A stretch of DNA of 64,000 bases from a virus: positions 62,001 to 126,000 of IMG/VR virus record IMGVR_UViG_3300042350_004528; one strand, given 5' to 3'. The number at the start of each line of letters is the position of its first letter. Position 1 is the stretch's first letter. The position numbers and the translations under genes are program-made. The notes beneath the pieces are model-generated. The model made no database searches, was not told the origin of the DNA, and saw nothing but the letters and a program-made list of their open reading frames with translations. This document shows positions 3,173 through 62,309 of this stretch, piece after piece.

Positions 3173-6100
3173 TTATATTATACCCAATTCTTTTTGATAT
3201 TTATTAAATTCTGTTTCGGTTGCTTTTTCAATAATTTCTGGATCCTCGCTTTGGGATGTAATATTAAACAAACCTCTTGTATTTGTAAACAAGATATAGT
3301 TATATAGTGAACTACCTTTAACTTCATAAGTGTCTTTTATAACAACAGTATAGTCGTCAACACCACCTTTTAATAGTTTATTGGCAATAAAGTCTGGTTT
3401 AAAAATGGTGTATGTTTCATTATCAATTAATATCTTATTTAGTTTTTTTACTACATTTTCTTCATTTTTAATGTATTCGTTATAAAGTGGATTAGTTTTT
3501 TGATTTGCAGCTGTCACATAATCTTTTATAATTGTAAATATAGACGTTAATATATTATCAATTTTAGCTAATTTTTTATCCTGTTGTTGTTTTTTAGCTT
3601 TTTCGTTTCCTGTGATACCCTTTGTTGGTTTTTCAGCTAAAATCTTTTTAGATAAATCGGCTTTATCCGTATCACTTAAATCGGCAAAAATTTTAATAAA
3701 AAATAGGTCTATAAAACCACTTAAATTTATTGTATCACCACTCATTGTGTTATAGTTTGTTGAACTTTGTTTTGGTACAAATTGTATTAAACTTTTTGGT
3801 ATAATATAGTTATATGGTACAAAATCATTTATTTGATTTATAATTGATTCGGTTACAGTTCCAGCTGTACTTCCAGTACTTAATGTGTAATAACTTATAT
3901 TTGTATTTACAAAATTTGCGTTATCACCATAATAAAACAAACTGGTTAAATCATTAGCGACTACTTGCGTATAAAAATCTTTAGACTCATCAAATTTTAT
4001 ATCTAAATCAAATTTTTTAGACATAAAATTATCATTTAACATTATATCTAGCGCTTTGTTTGAAAACTCAAAAAATTCATAATTTAATTTTTCAAAGGTA
4101 TAAGTCATCGGATAATGTTCGGCGTAGGATCCTGTTGTATCGTCATTACCTGTTGGTTGAACGCTCAATGTAGTTGTCGTACCAGGAATTGCGTTTTTAT
4201 CATACGATAAATTTAATGTAATTCCACTTGTAACCTCAAAGTTTGCGGCTGTTGGGGATAACGAAACGTTATTTTTAATCGCAACAGATTCAGGTAAGCT
4301 ATTATTAAATGTATATGCGTTACCCGAAATTTGTTGTATTTTTGAATCTTTAGATATTTGTTTAAAGAAATAGTTTCCGTTACCCAAAGACAAAAATTTA
4401 AGTTTATTACCGTAATTTAATTCAGAGTCATCAATAACAATTTTAATGTCAGCAAATTCTAATAATTCATAATTATTAAATGACATTGTTTTATATTTGT
4501 AATATGGGTCATAACCAAAAAGTGTTTCAGCCGAAGTTTTTAGTTTGTACTCATTCGGTATCACTTCGTATCTATATGTTTTTGTTTCGTCAGTTTTAAT
4601 ATCATAACCATCTAAAACAACAGACAAACCATTTACCAAACTAACCAATTTTCCAGTATTTCTTTCCAAATCACGTAAAACAACCCTTTTTTCTTCAGTA
4701 ACACCACTAATGTATGTTTTTAATTTTTCAATTAAAAAATCAGTAAATATCTTTTGGTGCGTAGATTCAAAATTTTGTAAATATTGGTCAAAAACATTTT
4801 TGCTTTTATCAGTTTTATGCCAAAAATGACATAAATTTAATTTAATCTTAAGAGCCATTTCCTCACCTAAAGCTAAAACAATATCATTTATGTTTTCACT
4901 GTAATCAGTATAATTTTTAAAATAAAAACCAGCAACTTCCGCATTTGTCTTTGTTGTGTTGCTTTGATAACCACCTGTAAAGTTGCCTGGATCAAACCTA
5001 CTTAAATCATCGAATGTGCCAGCTGTTGAAACTAACGTATTACCATCACCAATTTTATACATATAATTTTGTGGATTAAGATGTAATTTTAATGGCGATA
5101 ATTTAGCCGTTTTCATTTGATCGGATAAATTTTTATTTAATAAATCATACGAGCCATACTCAACATAATTTCTTTCAATAGCTTCTTTATCAAAAATAGT
5201 AAATAAGTTATACTTACCATTTGTTGTACCAGTTGTTATACCAGTTATATCATTAAAAACATCATCGTTATTTGGAAGTAAGCCCATCTCGGCTAAAGGA
5301 TCCGTAAGGTCAATACCCTGATTACTTGTCGTTGAGCCAGTTGTGCCAGTTATTATATTATTTGAATTTGTTTTTGTTAACCTTTTATTATAGTTTTTAT
5401 TTAAAACCAAATCCATTAATGTCATGTTTGAATCCGTAACTGTGTTAAAATTCATATTACCATTAAAAACTTCAGCATATGTTTCATAAAGTTGTTTAAA
5501 TATATCCCTATAATGTACCTCATACCAATTAAAGTAGGATTTGTCCAGATATTGATTTGGGTTGTTTGGGTCTTTCGACACGTTACTAAATTCTAAAACA
5601 AACGCCTGTTCTCCATAATTTCTCCACTTTATTTCTTCCCAATACTTTTTATTTGTTACTGGGGCTTGCGATCCATTTAATGTATTCTGAGTCAATAAAT
5701 CCTTTTCATTATCAGCTTTTCTTAGATAAAATTTACCTTGGTCGGAAACTATTTCATATGGTTGATATACTGTTGATTGGTTATATGCGTTCGCTGTAAA
5801 CAAATCCATAGAATAATTACCACCTGGTGTCGTTGGTATTCTTTTTTTAGTAATTACACCGATAGTTCCATATGGAACGTCATCAAGGAAATCGGCTGGA
5901 ACTATTCTCTCAGCAGCAGCTACAATTGGTATTAAATCTAATGTATTATTATCAAAGAAACTTCTTTCTAAATTAATTAAATTTCTTTCAAATAAATCTT
6001 TGTTCGCAAATGTTCTATCATCGTAAACATCAGCATTGGCATAATAGTTAAAAGATAACGCATTTTGTAACTCGTCAACATATTTTCTTAGGCCAGAACC

Positions 6101-9100
6101 ACCAATGTATTTAAAACTTAATTGTACATCGGCAATCATTGGTTGTGCCCCAATGCCCTCTGGGTTTAAATCCCAAACAAGTGGTTCATAAGATATGCTC
6201 AAATTATCAATTGCGATTTTTGTATGATAAAAATCGCCAATTCTTAAAACGCAAATAGGTGGTTTACCAAATGCTGTGTTTGAAGCATCGCAAGAGTCTT
6301 CACCATGTTTTCTTTTTATGGTTTCGCCTGGTCTTAAGCATTGTTGCAAAAATGTTAATCTAGCGTTTAATCCTTCGGGTGTAATCGCATGAAATGCTGG
6401 TTGGAAATACTTTAATTTTTGTTTTAAAGAATCGTACATAAAAGGTGTATCTGCTCTAAGTAATTCAAAATAATCACATTCGGTGATCATTTTGTTAATA
6501 ATTCTTTGCGCAATTTCTCTTTTTGTAACATTTTCGTATGTAAGTGGTTTTTCTTCTTGTGTGATAATCGTAGTTTCAACTGGAATGGCTTCTTTTGGTT
6601 TTTTAATTTCCTCTGGCTTGTTGATAACCTCCACTTTAATTTCAGCTCTTCTCGCAAACGAACTTACAATTGATAGTGCACCACAAACAACATCTTTATA
6701 TGGTCTGTCAATTTTAGCCTCAATTGTGCCAATGTGACTTGAATTAACACCTGGTATCCAATTACCTGTTATTGCTTTTTTAGCTAAAGCGTCTGTCTCA
6801 AAACAACAATATTTAACCTTTGTTGTGCTATTAGGGTCTGGTGCGTCAACCGTGTAAAAAATATTTTTATTTGGGCCAGCTGTCTGTGGATTTGGTATCA
6901 TTTCTTTTATAGCATCCGTTGATGTAATACCTTTTGCTTCAGTTAATACAAAAGTAATCGTATCTTTTGTATCTGGCTTAGCACCATCTCTTTTAAAACT
7001 TACAATTGATTGTGTCCCAGTATATAGTTGTTCTAAGTAACTATCAAACCAATCATTAGCCTCAAGTGGGTCATCATTGTCATAATAAATTTTACCCAAA
7101 TCACCTTTACTAATTACCTTTGTTACTAACCATTTAAGTGTTGAAATAAACCTTCTTCTTGATAATATGTTGTTATAATTTGCCGTACCTTGGTCTGGGC
7201 CCAAAGGTGATGCGTGTGTTTCTATTGTAATTTTTAAATCAAATCCTTTATACTTTGGATCGGATAAATCTTGTTCAATAGTTTGAAACTGTTTTTGCAT
7301 ACCGTACCACTTTGGTTTTCCAGATTCGGTTGATTCCATGTAATTTTCGGCGGAATCTTTTCCTATTGTATAATTATATCTAATCCATTCTGGTGGTATT
7401 ATACCCGATGATCTATAATTATTTTTAATTGCTTCAGCATTATTAGTTATATCAACACCCTTTGTTAATTCATAATATCTTGTAAATAAAATATCAAAAG
7501 ATTCTATTTTACCAGTATCATATATTGGGCTAATATTTTTATCAAAATCATTAGGCCTTAATGGTACATCATTTTCAAAAAATAAACAATCTCCATCAAT
7601 TATTGATTTTGGTTTTTCTCTATCAATAGTTATTGTTTGGTCAGCTTCGGGTTGTTTGTACGTTATTACCTTTTCAAGTTTTGGTTTTAATTTTTCATTT
7701 GATTTTGTTAAATCAAGATCACCAATAACTTTTTTAAAATAATCAATATCAGATTGTGTGAATTGATTCCATATTCTTGCTAACTCAAAAACATCAAAAT
7801 CTAAACAACCAGCCCAAAAAGCTGCGAGTAATTCATCAACTTCACCGTCTGTTAATCTTGCTAATTCTTTCTGAGTTAATAAATTTAATATTGATGGGTG
7901 ATCAACAACAATTTTCCAACTTAATGTTCCAGTTCTTTCTGAATTATTATATGTGTAAATTGGTTCGGGTCTACCTAAAAATTGATGGGTTGTCCAATTT
8001 GCAGATGTGTTGTCAGTAAATTTAATATCATATGGTGGAAACCACATAACTCTACCACCATTAGGGCCTTTTTCGCAAGCTGGTAAATCTGTTTTACCAT
8101 AATAGTTGTTTGCTTTATAATCTCTCCAAGCTAAGTTTTCAATTGAAAACATGTATTTTCTTGCACGTCTTTCACCAAAATATTCAACAACGGCATCACC
8201 AGAACCATCACCTAGTCGGCCATAACCAGTATTAACATTTAACTCAGATGGAAATATATTGTAATTACCAAATCTATCGATAACGGAATTTCGCTCCTTT
8301 CTTATTAATTCTTTATATCTAACTAAGTCTGTTACTTTATTGTAAGGTTTAATTTTTGTCCAAACACGACAAAGCTCAGCTTCGTTATACATTTCTCTAT
8401 CACTTCTTTTCCCTGTTGGATCTAAACCTGGAACTAAATAACGATAACCAATAACATCACCTTGTTTATTTAATCTTTCTGTTTTCTTTGGTAATATGGT
8501 TCCGTTTGCTCTAGACATAAAATCATAACCATCGTAAAATTTGGTTATGGTTTGATCAATAGGCGAATTAAACACACCAAATTCAGTTTGAATTCCTTTT
8601 TCAAGCAATTGGCTTGTTGTGTATAATATTGAACATTCTCTAAAATTACCTTGTTTAAATTTGTTTACACTCAATAATGAGCTAGTACCATCTATGTTAA
8701 TTGGTACTGGTTGTGCTTTTTGATTTGTTTTGAAATCAAAAGCTTTATCTTGAGCTGTTGATGATTTCCAAATAAAGTGCGTTTTAACCGAACCGTATTC
8801 ACTCACACCTTGTGGTCTGTCAATACCATCCGTATCAGATCCGCTGTAACCTGGTTCTTCATATTGATTTATAAGGGTTAAATTACCCTTTTTAAGCGAT
8901 TCGACAATAGCTTGGTTACTTCTAACCTGATGTCCATCGGCATCTTGTAGTAAATAAAAAGGATCGTCATACTTACCTTTATTTCCGATATAATATCTAC
9001 CCTCTGGTGTTTCACCAGCTCCTATACCAAAGTAACCACCAATTTTTCTTAACTCTTGTAACTCTTCTTGCCCTAAGAATAGTGTTGTTTCTTGATCGGC

Positions 9101-29633: not shown

Positions 29634-32600
29634 ATGTCTGATTATAAAATATCGTTGAGTGAAGTCGAGTCGTTTTTATTAGGTCATGATGACGAAAAAT
29701 ATATCGTAAATTTAGAGTACGATAAAGAAACGAATTTAATTTACAAGTTCAAACAACTACCTGACGGTACAAAAACGACCGAAACCGAACCGCTTAAGTC
29801 CTTTATGTGGATGAAACACCTCGGCGAGTTAAAAGAAAACCTTAATTTTTACGGTAAAAACGACCTGAATATTCAAAATGCTAGAAAAGAATACGGTATA
29901 ACCATAACTGAACTTGATCACCAAAATCACCCTAAGCTTGAGACTGGTTACCAATATTTGGTAACTTGCGATCAGGGGCATGAAAGGATGTTGCAGTTTT
30001 TTAGAAACGGAGGTCTCTATGGTGGTGTGTATGATAGACGTAATGGTATAAATGAAAACTTCTTGATTTTGAGTCCTATTGAGCAATACCTAATATCAAC
30101 AGGTAAAAGGCTTTTTAAGGGTTATGAGGACTACGATAATCTAGAAAAATTCGTATTCGACTTAGAGACAACTGGCTTGGATCCTAAAACTTCTAGAATA
30201 TTTTTAGTTGGTTGTAAGTCAAATAATGGCTTTGAGGAATTGTTTGATTGTGAAACCGATGGTGACAATGCTGACAGAAGCGAAGTTGCCGCGATAGCTA
30301 AATTTTTTGCGGTTATCGATTATTTAAAACCAACAATAATTGGCGGGTACAATAGTGCAAACTTTGACTGGGATTTTATTTTTAAAAGATGTGAGATACT
30401 TGGTATTGATATAACTAAAATCGCCAAAACACTAAAAAACGGTGAAGTTATTAATAATCGAGATGGTATATTAAAATTGGGTAATGAGATTGAAAACTAT
30501 GTCCAAACAAATATGTTTGGATATTCGATTATTGATATCATACACTCAGTTAGACGTGCACAAGCGATTGACTCTAGTATGAAATCAGCGTCATTAAAAT
30601 ACGTTTGTAAGTATAATAAAGTAGCAAAAAAGAATCGTGTTTATATTAAAGGTGATAAAATTGGCGCTTTATGGTCTAGCGATAAAAAATATTATTTTGA
30701 TGATAAGACTGGTTCTTATTTAGAGATAAAACCAAAATTTGAAAAAATGGATTATATCACAAGAGAAATTGTTCGAGATAATCCTAAAAAAATATTTGTT
30801 TTCGGTGATAATGATGAGCGTGATGGTTTTGGTGGCCAGGCTGGTCAAATGAGGGGTGAAAAAAATTCAATTGGAATACCAACAAAGAAAAAACCAACAA
30901 TGGATCCCGATGCGTTCTATTGCGATTCCGAATTTGAAGAAAATAAGAAAAAGATTAATTATGCGGTAACGCAAATTTTATCAAAAATACGAGATGGTTA
31001 TAGTGTTGTTTTTCCATCAGATGGTCTTGGTACTGGTTTAGCTGAATTACCAAAAAGAGCGCCAAAAACTTATCAGTTTTTAGTTGCAAATATTAATGCG
31101 ATTGAAAAATATATTAACAATGATTGGATTGAAGTCGATGGTAAATATATAGTTAAAAGGTATTTGATGGATGACTTATGGGAAACCATGGAAGTTGACA
31201 ACATCTATAATCAAACATCTTTTATGTTGGCTAAAATGATCCCAACTACATATCAAAGAGTGTCAACTATGGGTACCGCTGGGTTGTGGAAACTACTAAT
31301 GTTAACATGGTCTTATGAGAAAAATTTAGCAATACCAGTTTCGGACAGAAAAAGAGATTTTGTTGGTGGTCTATCAAGATTATTAAAAGTTGGGTTTTCA
31401 AAAGACCTGAGAAAAATGGACTTTAACTCACTATATCCAGCTATACAATTAGCACATGATGTGTTCCCGTCTGTCGATGTTAGTGGTGTGATGAAATCTT
31501 TCTTAAAATATTTCCACTCTGAAAGATTTAAAGCAAAGGACTTGGCTAAAAAATATGGTAAAGAGGGTAATAAACAACTTGAGTCACTCTACAAAAGAAA
31601 ACAATTACCGCTTAAAATCTTTATCAACTCGATGTTCGGTGCGCTTGGCGCCCCAAATGCGTTCCCATGGGCTGAAATGGATGTCGCTGAGGGTATAACA
31701 TGTAGAGCTAGACAGTACCTCCGCTTAATGGTTAAATTCTTTATGAAAAGGGGTTACCAACCAACTGTACTTGACACTGACGGTGTTAACTTCATGGCGC
31801 CAAGTACAGGTGAAGAATATTTTTATTATGTGGGTAAAGGTTATAATAGTGAAGTTGTTGCGGGTAAAGAATACAGAGGTGTACATGCCGTTGTTGCTGA
31901 ATTTAATGATTTATATATGAAAGGCGAGATGGCACTTGGTTTAGATGGTATGTGGCCAGCGACACTAAATTTAGCTCGTAAAAACTACGCTCTACTTGAA
32001 AATGATGGTAGTATTAGTTTAACTGGAAATACGATTAAATCTAAAAAGCTACCAATTTATATTGAAGAGTTTTTGGATAAGTCTATTGTTTTACTTTTAA
32101 ATGGTAAGGGTTATGAATTCGTCCAACTTTACTACGATTACATCGGTAAAATATGTGATAAAAAAATACCTTTGGCTAAAATCGCAACCAAAGCGAGGGT
32201 TAAAAAAACCATCGAGCAATATAGAAACAGAGGTGTTAATAAAAATGGGCAACCGTTACCAAAGCAAGCTCATATGGAATTAGCTATTTTAAATAACATA
32301 TCGGTTAGTTTGGGTGATACACTTTATTATGTAAATAACGGCACAAAAAAATCCCATGGCGATATTCAAACAACTAAAAAATGCAAACTAAAAGCAGCTG
32401 AAGTTAGATTGTATGAAATTAATAATGGTAAATCACCTGGCCCAGAGTATTATGATATAACTGAAAAAATAAATTGCTATCTTCTTGATGAAAAACAAAT
32501 GGAAGTTAACCCAGAAGCCGTTGGGGAATATAATGTTGAAAAATATGTTGCAATGTTTAATTCGAGAATCAAAGGACTTTTGGTTAATTTTGATATTAAG

Positions 32601-32840
32601 GTTAGAAACCAAATACTAATTAACAACCCAGAGGAAAAAAAGAATTGGATGGTTTCTGAACTTGAGATGGTTAATAGCCAACCAAATAAAGAATCTGATC
32701 AAGATACAATTGAAGAGTTGTTCACACCATCTGGTCTTGAAAAAGATTATTGGGGTAGATATAACTATAACCCAGATTTTTGGTTTACCGATAATACCAG
32801 CTTTACTATCCCAGGTTTAGGTCGAGAAGTACCAGTTTAA
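29634..32840 (+). CDS. gp43: Family B DNA polymerase with 3'-5' exonuclease and nested FGDN/GGQA domain
   Basis: The 1068-residue protein has the family B set: exonuclease motif I VFDLETTGLD (about 174-183), motif II GGYNSANFDWDF (about 236-247), a motif III candidate KRYLMDDLWETM (about 508-519), polymerase motif A DFNSLYP (about 596), motif B KIFINSMFGALG (about 660) and motif C DTDGVNF (about 714). Residues about 377-497, between exonuclease motifs II and III, hold an extra domain (FVFGDNDERDGFGGQAGQM, NSIGIPTKKKP, FPSDGLGTGLAEL, RAPKTYQF) usually seen as a separate phage protein. It is under an early promoter and replicates the phage genome. The extra domain interrupts the exonuclease fold but all catalytic acidic residues are still visible. 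Confidence 0.9.
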   Translation: MSDYKISLSEVESFLLGHDDEKYIVNLEYDKETNLIYKFKQLPDGTKTTETEPLKSFMWMKHLGELKENLNFYGKNDLNIQNARKEYGITITELDHQNHPKLETGYQYLVTCDQGHERMLQFFRNGGLYGGVYDRRNGINENFLILSPIEQYLISTGKRLFKGYEDYDNLEKFVFDLETTGLDPKTSRIFLVGCKSNNGFEELFDCETDGDNADRSEVAAIAKFFAVIDYLKPTIIGGYNSANFDWDFIFKRCEILGIDITKIAKTLKNGEVINNRDGILKLGNEIENYVQTNMFGYSIIDIIHSVRRAQAIDSSMKSASLKYVCKYNKVAKKNRVYIKGDKIGALWSSDKKYYFDDKTGSYLEIKPKFEKMDYITREIVRDNPKKIFVFGDNDERDGFGGQAGQMRGEKNSIGIPTKKKPTMDPDAFYCDSEFEENKKKINYAVTQILSKIRDGYSVVFPSDGLGTGLAELPKRAPKTYQFLVANINAIEKYINNDWIEVDGKYIVKRYLMDDLWETMEVDNIYNQTSFMLAKMIPTTYQRVSTMGTAGLWKLLMLTWSYEKNLAIPVSDRKRDFVGGLSRLLKVGFSKDLRKMDFNSLYPAIQLAHDVFPSVDVSGVMKSFLKYFHSERFKAKDLAKKYGKEGNKQLESLYKRKQLPLKIFINSMFGALGAPNAFPWAEMDVAEGITCRARQYLRLMVKFFMKRGYQPTVLDTDGVNFMAPSTGEEYFYYVGKGYNSEVVAGKEYRGVHAVVAEFNDLYMKGEMALGLDGMWPATLNLARKNYALLENDGSISLTGNTIKSKKLPIYIEEFLDKSIVLLLNGKGYEFVQLYYDYIGKICDKKIPLAKIATKARVKKTIEQYRNRGVNKNGQPLPKQAHMELAILNNISVSLGDTLYYVNNGTKKSHGDIQTTKKCKLKAAEVRLYEINNGKSPGPEYYDITEKINCYLLDEKQMEVNPEAVGEYNVEKYVAMFNSRIKGLLVNFDIKVRNQILINNPEEKKNWMVSELEMVNSQPNKESDQDTIEELFTPSGLEKDYWGRYNYNPDFWFTDNTSFTIPGLGREVPV

Positions 32841-35671: not shown

Positions 35672-35703
35672 AAAGGGGTTAAGTGATTAACCCCTTTTTT
35701 TTT
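35672..35703 (+). terminator. Intrinsic terminator after the 32888-35650 operon
   Basis: AAAGGGGTTAA (35672-35682) pairs with TTAACCCCTTT (35687-35697) over 11 bp with a GTGA loop, followed by a T-run to 35703. Confidence 0.9.
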
Positions 35704-35728
35704 GCGTAATATTTCTTATTATTGTTAT

Positions 35729-36124
35729 ATGAATGAAATAGTTTGGGTAAACGGAACTTTTGACATCTTACATAACGGTCATTTTAGATTAATTAACTAC
35801 GCATCGTCATTAGGTAAACTAATAATCGGAATTGATAGTGATGCCAGAGTGAAAAAAATAAAAGGTGATAATAGGCCATACCATAACCAATTTGAAAGGC
35901 ACTATAATTTAATATCGATAAAGGGGGTTTATAACGTATTAATCTTTGATAGTGATGAAGAGTTAAAAGAATTAATAAAAATGAACTCACCAGACTACTT
36001 TGTTATTGGTTCTGATTATAAAGATAAAAAAATAATTGGCGCTGAATACGCGAAAGAAATGATCTTCTTTAACAGAATAAATTTCTCAACAACAGAAATC
36101 TTAAAATTATGGGACATAAAATAA
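35729..36124 (+). CDS. Nucleotidyltransferase of the cytidylyltransferase-like family
   Basis: The 131-residue product shows the family signature: [20 protein letters not shown] at residues 6-25 (HxGH active-site motif HNGH) and [13 protein letters not shown] plus IGSDYKDK later. This fold includes glycerol-3-phosphate cytidylyltransferase and the HldE adenylyltransferase domain, which activate sugars or polyols for cell-surface polymers. The start at 35729 (MNEIVWVN) places the conserved strand correctly; the earlier TTG falls inside the terminator T-run. It opens a long cluster of sugar genes and overlaps the next gene by 16 bp. Confidence 0.85.
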
Positions 36125-36510
36125 AACCAAAAGTCATCAATGCAAAAGAATGCGAAAGTTGTAATATACCAAAAGGCTGGGGGCACGAAATTATTTTTGA
36201 AAATAATGAACTATATTGTGGTAAATTACTTTGTTTTAAAGCTGGGGCTAAGTTTTCTATGCATTACCACATGATAAAAGATGAAGCGTGGTATGTTAAA
36301 GAAGGTAAATTCATTTACAGGTGGATTGACACGGATAATGCCGATATTCATGAAATTGAATTACGAGAGGGCGACAGTGTTAGGCAATTACCAGGTCAAC
36401 CGCACCAATTAGAAGCGGTTACCGATGGTATCGTTTTTGAGGTTTCAACACAACATTTTGATTATGATTCCTATCGCGTATTAAAAGGTGATTCAAATAA
36501 ACCCCAATAA
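36109..36510 (+). CDS. Cupin-domain protein (sugar isomerase/epimerase type)
   Basis: A 133-residue single cupin: [20 protein letters not shown], then [20 protein letters not shown] (metal ligands H-x-H and E) and the second motif [20 protein letters not shown]. Cupins of this length next to nucleotidyltransferases act on phosphosugars or as mannose-6-phosphate isomerase-like proteins. The ending [20 protein letters not shown] is also a usual cupin end. Metal-binding residues are present. Likely part of the sugar pathway here; exact substrate unknown. Confidence 0.8.
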
Positions 36511-60524: not shown

Positions 60525-62309
60525 GTGAATATAACAGATAAAAGACAACTACTATTAGAGTACACAAAATGTGCTAAAGACCCTTCTTATGCAATTGAAA
60601 GTTATTTTGAAACTTTTGATAAAACACAAGAGGGTTTTGTGCCATTTAAATTATTTGACAAACAAAAGTTATTAATTAGTAATTACGAAACTAATCGATT
60701 TAATTTAGTTTTAAAATATAGACAAGCTGGTATATCAACGGTAACTGCGGCATACGCTGCGGTAAAAACAGCTTTTGCTATTTCAGATAACCCAGAGAGG
60801 GTGCTTATTCTAGCGAACAAACAAGAAACTGCCGTTGAATTCTTAAATAAGATAACAGGTTTTATCAAACAATTACCTGATTGGACTAACATTACATTCG
60901 ATAAAGCATCCCAAAAACATGTTAAACTATCAAATGGGTCAGAATTAAAGGCAGTTGCAACATCTACGGATGCGTTACGTGGTTATACACCAACAATAAT
61001 GATTCTGGACGAAGCTGCGTTTATTGAGGGTGGCCAAGCTCTTTGGTCAGCGTGTTTAGCTGCGATAGGTACTGGTGGTAAGGCGTTTTTAATATCCACA
61101 CCAAATGGTTTGGATGAAATCTACTATGAGGCGTATGAGGGTGCTATAAGTGGAACTAATAAATTTAAAGTAACACATTTAAAGTGGTGGCAAGATCCCC
61201 GTTTTAATAAAGATCTTTGTCTAATTAAAACAAACGACATTATAAATTGGATTCAAAAACCAGAAGCGGAAAAAGACGAGCATATTATTGAAAGCGCCGT
61301 TGCTTTACATTATGATATTATTATAAAGTTCATAGAAGAGGGTTATAAACCACATTCAACATGGTATGAGAATATGTGCCGTGATATGAACTTAAATAAG
61401 CGAATGATTAACCAAGAATTGGAGTGCGCTTTTATTGGTTCTGGTGACAACGTTATTGAGGGTGAGGTGGTAAGAAGACAAGAAGAGACCAACGTTATGG
61501 AACCATCATTCAAAGATAGAGAATGGGATAATAATGTTTGGGTTTGGAAAATGCCACAAAAAGGTCATAGATATATTTTAGCGTTGGATGTATCTCGTGG
61601 TGATTCCGAAGATGCGACTGGTATGTGTATTATTGACTACGATACATATGAACAGGTTTTAGAGTATCATGGAAAGGTTCCACCTGACATTGCGGCTCAA
61701 CTTGTTGATCATTACGGTAGAATGTATAATGCATTATCAACTTTTGATATAACTGGTGGTATGGGAATTGCTGCAACATCTAAGTTAAAGGAAATGAACT
61801 ACCCAAAATCATTACTACATTATGATAATCTAAACGATGATGCTTTTTATATACCACCACCAGATGCGGTACCTGGAATTAATTTTGCATCAAAAAACAG
61901 AAGAAGTCAAATCGTTGCCGCATTAGAGGAAGCGGTATCTAGAGGTGATTTTAAAATACGAAGTGAAAGATTGATAGCCGAACTTAAGAAGTTTATATAC
62001 AAAAACGGAAAACCAGACCATATGAAAGGATCTCACGATGATCTTATTATGGCTTTGGGTATGTGTTTATTCGTGGCTAACACATCATTTAAAAAGCTAC
62101 AAGAGTCTGATAGTATGACAAAGGCTATGTTGGATAGTTGGAGAACAAATATTAATACAACTTCAACAAAAAGTAGCTATTTATTAGAAGATACAATAAA
62201 ATCAGTACCAGATGAAGGTAGAGTCTACAATAAAAGAGAAGTAAATGACAATATTTTACAAAATACACGTGACTTTTCCTGGCTTTTTGGTAATATTAAT
62301 AAAAGATAG
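60525..62309 (+). CDS. terL: Terminase large subunit, T4 gp17-like
   Basis: The 594-residue packaging motor has an ATPase with Walker A-like LKYRQAGISTVTAAYAAV (about 63-80), Walker B IMILDEAAFIEGGQALW (about 157-173) and a coupling motif FLISTPNG, followed by a nuclease domain with LALDVSRGDSEDATGMCI (about 350-367), FDITGGMG and a SHDDLIMALGM end motif (about 503). It cuts and pumps genomic DNA through the portal. Start codon GTG at 60525. Like T4 gp17 it is followed by the portal gene, with one small gene between. Confidence 0.95.
   Translation: MNITDKRQLLLEYTKCAKDPSYAIESYFETFDKTQEGFVPFKLFDKQKLLISNYETNRFNLVLKYRQAGISTVTAAYAAVKTAFAISDNPERVLILANKQETAVEFLNKITGFIKQLPDWTNITFDKASQKHVKLSNGSELKAVATSTDALRGYTPTIMILDEAAFIEGGQALWSACLAAIGTGGKAFLISTPNGLDEIYYEAYEGAISGTNKFKVTHLKWWQDPRFNKDLCLIKTNDIINWIQKPEAEKDEHIIESAVALHYDIIIKFIEEGYKPHSTWYENMCRDMNLNKRMINQELECAFIGSGDNVIEGEVVRRQEETNVMEPSFKDREWDNNVWVWKMPQKGHRYILALDVSRGDSEDATGMCIIDYDTYEQVLEYHGKVPPDIAAQLVDHYGRMYNALSTFDITGGMGIAATSKLKEMNYPKSLLHYDNLNDDAFYIPPPDAVPGINFASKNRRSQIVAALEEAVSRGDFKIRSERLIAELKKFIYKNGKPDHMKGSHDDLIMALGMCLFVANTSFKKLQESDSMTKAMLDSWRTNINTTSTKSSYLLEDTIKSVPDEGRVYNKREVNDNILQNTRDFSWLFGNINKR

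Follow-up and report, generated by a model that had tools for sequence, protein, structure and literature searches.

A DUF7831 domain predicted to fold independently inside the exonuclease of a phage family B DNA polymerase

We analyzed 64,000 nucleotides of viral DNA (the window; positions 62,001 to 126,000 of IMG/VR record IMGVR_UViG_3300042350_004528, which is 298,833 bp or 298.8 kb long), where an open reading frame of 1068 codons encodes a DNA polymerase (Table 1). Pfam assigns DNA_pol_B_exo1 to residues 215-324 and DNA_pol_B to residues 617-705, and the protein matches the PHROG 262 DNA polymerase (E = 1e-47). Its sequence and fold matches in the PDB are archaeal and eukaryotic family B polymerases (PolB; 9N, KOD and Pol epsilon structures), with E-values down to 4e-29 when the whole-protein model is searched against archaeal PolB structures. 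In an alignment of 53 sequences, the residues D176, E178, D245, Y510, D514, D596, D714 and D716 are invariant or nearly so. Judged by its sequence, the protein is a PolB with all of its exonuclease and polymerase catalytic motifs intact, including exonuclease motifs II and III (Exo II and Exo III), both of which a first-pass annotation of the letters had considered undamaged. The polymerase of the window, like its nearest copies, also carries a second, smaller lineage-specific stretch of about 27 extra residues near positions 915-951 (window 32376-32486), which is absent from the polymerases of L003, L004 and L009. Elsewhere in the window, a CTP-transferase-like gene is followed by a cupin gene (35702-36507), possibly a sugar or nucleotide-sugar pair.

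Table 1. Coordinates within the window of the polymerase gene, its motifs and the nested domain
Feature	Position	Strand	Basis or detail
Family B DNA polymerase ORF, host of the insert	29634..32840	+	1068 aa
Exonuclease motif I, D176-E178	30159..30167	+	53-sequence alignment
Exonuclease motif II, YNSANFDW, D245	30348..30371	+	53-sequence alignment
Polymerase strand before insert, residues 352-356	30687..30701	+	predicted strand
Folded insert, DUF7831 domain, residues 366-497	30729..31124	+	AlphaFold, with edges from insert-free relatives
PF25176 match, residues 372-485	30747..31088	+	Pfam, E = 4e-43
FGDN signature, residues 390-393, end of strand 2	30801..30812	+	F in 95, G in 95, D in 98 and N in 100 of 101 members
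GGQA signature, residues 400-403	30831..30842	+	kept in 96 of 101 family members
GIPTK signature, residues 414-418	30873..30887	+	T417 in 101 and K418 in 100 of 101 members
DGLGTGLA glycine loop, residues 463-470	31020..31043	+	G466 invariant; G464 in 97, T467 in 91 and G468 in 96 of 101 members
Polymerase strand after insert, residues 498-502, into Exo III helix	31125..31139	+	predicted strand; helix from 503
Exonuclease motif III, Y510-D514	31161..31175	+	53-sequence alignment
Polymerase motif A, DFNSLYP, residues 596-602	31419..31439	+	53-sequence alignment
Polymerase motif C, DTD, residues 714-716	31773..31781	+	53-sequence alignment

The first-pass annotation had recognized, nested between Exo II and Exo III, the FGDN, GGQA, GIPTK and DGLGTGLA pattern of a small phage protein family, which it named as DUF7831, and had proposed as checks a domain search of this region alone, a predicted structure and a search for other polymerases with the same insertion. 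All four motifs lie where it had placed them, and the insert sits after D245 and before Y510 and D514. The family assignment is borne out by Pfam, in which PF25176 (DUF7831) scores 146.5 bits against a curated cut-off of 27 and is covered from position 4 to 117 of 118; the insert searched alone matches DUF7831 at 2e-44, and PHROG 2072 matches it as well. The window copy has each of the 26 residues that the family conserves at 90% or more (within FGDN, GxGGQA, MRGExN, GIxTK, GxGTG and AP). The limits given earlier (residues 377-497, 30765-31125) were right in place and wrong at the edge, as the folded domain starts at residue 366. NCBIfam holds no match to the insert, a PDB sequence search with it returned chance-level matches only, and the best Foldseek matches in the PDB, to tyrosine phosphatases, are not significant (E = 0.2, TM about 0.33). 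The polymerase was also searched for Hint and LAGLIDADG domains, and neither matched. As the first reading had held, the insert is not an intein, because these matches are absent and because the domain is known as a stand-alone family.

Structure prediction agrees with a separate domain. AlphaFold models the insert alone with high confidence (pLDDT 96.3, pTM 0.89, 101 homologues) as four strands in the order strand-helix-strand-helix-strand-helix-strand-helix. In the model of the full polymerase (pLDDT 86.5, pTM 0.74, 53 relatives), the same elements reappear unchanged at residues 369-496, between two polymerase strands, the second of which leads into the helix (503-535) that bears the Exo III residues. 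From their order, these two strands probably pair as a hairpin. The insert model superimposes on models of stand-alone DUF7831 proteins with TM-scores of 0.86-0.94 (0.94 for a Hyperionvirus member, 0.90 for members from Tupanvirus and phage Seuss). We conclude that a complete DUF7831 domain, predicted by these models to fold independently, is nested between Exo II and Exo III.

We then compared relatives of the polymerase obtained from IMG/VR searches. Each locus search gave its best 80 matches, so that the counts are not a census, and the contigs compared can be related to each other and may be fragments. Among the matches listed, at least 18 of 173 distinct polymerases, from uncultured phage contigs, carry DUF7831 at the same site, and about 155, many of them roughly 50% identical, do not. 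The spacing between Exo II and Exo III, where it can be measured, is 260-269 residues in 17 sequences and 140-159 residues in 144, with nothing between; the spacing pattern failed in 12 of the 173, 11 of which are without DUF7831, and the six inspected among these 11 have a short linker or no insert. Because insert-free relatives have a short linker there (for example TEERSLEDGY and REVGSKGTENLMERFPGKF), this is a clean site of presence or absence. Each of 12 insert-bearing records tested has one DUF7831 copy, located in the polymerase frame, as does the window's own record. The 34 insert-free records, some of them 180-215 kb long and all possibly fragments, have none. Two other departures from the usual gene were seen among relatives. 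An insert-free relative, L019 (6004-10536; also L015 and L021), has an intein-like insertion of about 350 residues bearing LAGLIDADG at motif C, which parts the D from the TD. In the 320-kb contig L043, the polymerase occupies two frames (4894-7212 and 7164-8165) that overlap by about 50 bases and are split just past motif C, through a frameshift, a sequencing error or a split gene.

Insert-bearing polymerases reach down to 59% identity with that of the window and include the more distant L047. The insertion happened long ago in the replicative-type PolB of a jumbo-phage lineage, between two strands that lie just ahead of the Exo III helix. In a core tree of the polymerase built with the insert masked, 17 insert-bearing polymerases cluster (support 67), and L047 falls at the base of an insert-free sister clade (support 100), a position with which a second tree concurs. 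The placement of L047 therefore implies either that the insert was gained once and lost once, or that it was gained twice at one site; an AU test on the insert tree does not reject the grouping of all PolB inserts in a single clade (p = 0.25). Inserts diverge faster than their surroundings: L164 and L009 are 46% identical in the insert versus 82-83% in the flanks. The insert's pN/pS is 0.05-0.46, or 0.8-2.4 times that of the core. Taken together, these sequence comparisons indicate that the insert changes at about twice the rate of the polymerase, yet under purifying selection. Most PolB inserts keep the signature residues. In one sublineage (L164, L165 and L167-L169), the domain is retained with a degenerate signature: FGDN has become YDEN, YSDN or YSEN, GGQA has become GQQS, GEQS or GEES, with changes in the GTG loop as well. 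An intact pocket is therefore dispensable in this sublineage. The position of L164 also differs between the core tree (support 87) and the insert tree, and this conflict makes faster evolution or exchange of the insert possible.

Outside this lineage, DUF7831 usually stands alone as a protein of 120-200 aa, found in phages of Caulobacter, Rhizobium, Ruegeria, Microcystis and others, in some bacterial contigs (Acidobacteria, Hymenobacter, Methylobacterium) and in giant viruses, with predicted models for Hyperionvirus, Tupanvirus and Yasminevirus. It also occurs as a module of ORFs of 1600-3560 aa (L049, L059, L075, L084, L089, L090, L091, L113 and L115), where the partners include a cpYpsA-SLOG domain (L049), a weak ART-PolyVal match (L059) and a guanylate kinase (L091), and otherwise little that is recognisable. 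These giant ORFs have the architecture of polyvalent proteins, the multidomain conflict proteins of phages and plasmids (PMC5512222); this holds for the family, not for the window copy. In L048 and L050, DUF7831 forms the N-terminus of proteins of 724-859 aa with no other Pfam match. We know of no ligand or activity for any DUF7831 protein, and our literature search found no paper that names the family.

The genes next to stand-alone DUF7831 suggest a biochemical setting. At four loci (L046, L060, L065 and L102), the gene lies at most three genes from a pair encoding NadM-Nudix and NadV/NAMPT, which is a phage NAD salvage set (PMC9503650). Among 88 near genes, within two positions of DUF7831, the commonest Pfam families are NUDIX (5) and CTP_transf_like (4), followed by two SLOG, one NADAR and one NAPRTase among the 25 families listed; the CBASS inhibitor Acb3 is also found there. 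In a control of 88 farther genes, from which one gene, the NadV of the L065 pair, was excluded by hand, the 25 families listed do not include NUDIX, NADAR or NAPRTase, and SLOG and CTP_transf_like occur once each. This control is small, independence among the loci is incomplete, and each table gives the top 25 families. We read the greater frequency of NAD/ADP-ribose genes near stand-alone DUF7831 as an association, not as proof of function. No gene is common to all of the neighbourhoods, which form partial groups only, and an 'RNA 2'-phosphotransferase' label near L034 belongs to a low-complexity protein and was not used. The window's record itself has a NAPRTase/NAMPT-family (NadV-type) gene (G000:C1:234585-235274) and a Nudix domain (182852-183196, in a 624-aa frame), both far from the polymerase. 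Overall, the neighbourhoods and fusions of stand-alone DUF7831 lend indirect support to a link with NAD or ADP-ribose.

With a probability of roughly 0.4, we favor the explanation that the insert is a module that binds or processes a ligand of the NAD/ADP-ribose type and is tethered to the replisome. The polymerase insert would do in cis what free-standing DUF7831 does in trans: it may bind, and perhaps hydrolyze, a small NAD+/ADP-ribose-type or nucleotide-type ligand in a putative pocket formed by the FGDN, GGQA, TK and GLGTGLA loops. The polymerase tether would carry this activity to the replication fork, where replication could be shielded from a host defence based on NAD/ADP-ribose, or made responsive to such a metabolite. 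The first-pass annotation had supposed that a domain placed here could alter processivity, proofreading or nucleotide sensing. The pocket, the type of ligand and the benefit of tethering are inferred. Against this explanation, no DUF7831 protein has a ligand or activity known to us, the insert has no fold match in the PDB, the neighbourhood control is small, and the sublineage of L164 keeps the domain after losing much of the FGDN, GGQA and GTGLA signature.

The same sublineage is a point in favor of the main rival, which we consider rather unlikely, namely that the insert is a non-catalytic, rigid surface platform that binds a replisome partner, or the fingers or exonuclease, and for which any old ligand pocket is dispensable. 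The poxvirus-specific inserts of vaccinia E9 provide a precedent: insert 3 binds the A20 cofactor, and insert 2, a small domain within the exonuclease that possibly contacts the fingers, is an example of a separate PolB exonuclease domain without a known enzymatic role (PMC5682278). The roughly doubled evolutionary rate and the placement of the domain between two exonuclease strands also suit a platform. However, most lineages keep the signature that they share with stand-alone members, 26 of 26 positions in the window copy, which a pure scaffold would not need.

The fast evolution and the decay of the signature in one lineage could also be expected of a tolerated passenger, a mobile or recombining gene that was inserted by chance, does no harm at the surface and persists through inertia; the absence of the domain from most relatives, with a possible loss in the sister clade, fits this account too. 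We regard it as improbable. Down to 59% identity, and in the distant L047, the open frame, the predicted fold and, in most cases, the signature have been kept, and the pN/pS of the insert is well below 1.

The first-pass annotation had further suggested that the domain is possibly macro-like, a description that our searches did not establish. Pfam finds no macro domain (PF01661) in the polymerase at E ≤ 1, nor anywhere in the 298.8-kb record, and no macro chain is among the 50 PDB fold matches listed for the insert. Against viral macro models, the insert reaches a TM-score of 0.47 at E = 1.3-2.5. With hhalign, SVVFPSDGLGTGLAELP aligns with the STG/GTG loop of macro alignments, a local match with a probability of just 5-12%. 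Like a macro domain, the insert appears to have a GTG-type loop after a strand, at a strand-loop-helix element. It also has a strand that ends in Asn and precedes a Gly-rich stretch, and the order of its elements, FGDN-GGQA...TK...GLGTG, is comparable; unlike the six-stranded mixed sheet of a macro domain, it is predicted to have four strands, and it lacks a significant profile, fold or Pfam match. Since the tests are weak or negative, we do not class the insert as a macro domain, although it might work like one.

If it did, the polymerase might carry its own domain for removing or sensing ADP-ribose, clearing or reading marks that the host places on DNA, as a counter to DarTG-type defence. 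DarT puts ADP-ribose on single-stranded DNA and stalls replication (PMC7003065), DarG undoes the mark via a macrodomain or a NADAR domain, and mutations in the DNA polymerase can allow coliphages to evade DarTG (PMC11481870). An ADP-ribose module borne by the polymerase would make sense because DarT stalls replication and polymerase mutations escape DarTG. In the enzymatic form of this proposal, a macro-like domain strips DarT-type ADP-ribose from the phage's single-stranded DNA and lets the fork pass; the GTG-loop profile match, at the corresponding strand-loop-helix element, and the NAD/ADP-ribose gene context speak for it. Both forms strike us as decidedly improbable, given for the enzymatic one the lack of a macro match in Pfam or the PDB, the low hhalign probability, the four strands versus six and, in the model, the position of the insert by the exonuclease.

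Finally, a misassembly or sequencing error that joined two genes is a negligible prospect: we found no point in its support. The same insert, at the same site and in one open frame, recurs across separate metagenomes in many contigs that are 59-100% identical, and no fewer than 16 additional distinct sequences show it.

Separate domains inserted into a PolB exonuclease were already known from vaccinia E9 and have been little explained. Here, one site exists in both natural states, with a short linker in many relatives and a whole conserved phage domain in one lineage; therefore, a comparison of insertion and deletion is straightforward. Because stand-alone copies adjoin NAD/ADP-ribose genes and take part in polyvalent-type fusions, knowing what DUF7831 does would shed light on proteins of phages, giant viruses and some bacterial genomes, and it could reveal that phage replication is directly linked to NAD/ADP-ribose-based immunity.

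Compared with archaeal and eukaryotic-type PolB, the window polymerase has the same exonuclease and polymerase motifs and the same fold, and adds a domain of 130 residues between Exo II and Exo III. Compared with stand-alone DUF7831 and PHROG 2072 phage proteins (about 130 aa), the insert matches over the whole domain, is 31-45% identical to the phage members sampled and shares their predicted fold; it differs in being nested in a DNA polymerase, whereas DUF7831 elsewhere has a gene to itself or forms part of giant polyvalent-type proteins. Vaccinia E9 insert 2 is alike at the level of the domain, as both are small separate domains within a PolB exonuclease. However, the E9 domain has about 80 aa and forms a beta barrel of six strands, whereas the window insert is of the alpha/beta type and bears a conserved glycine-rich signature.
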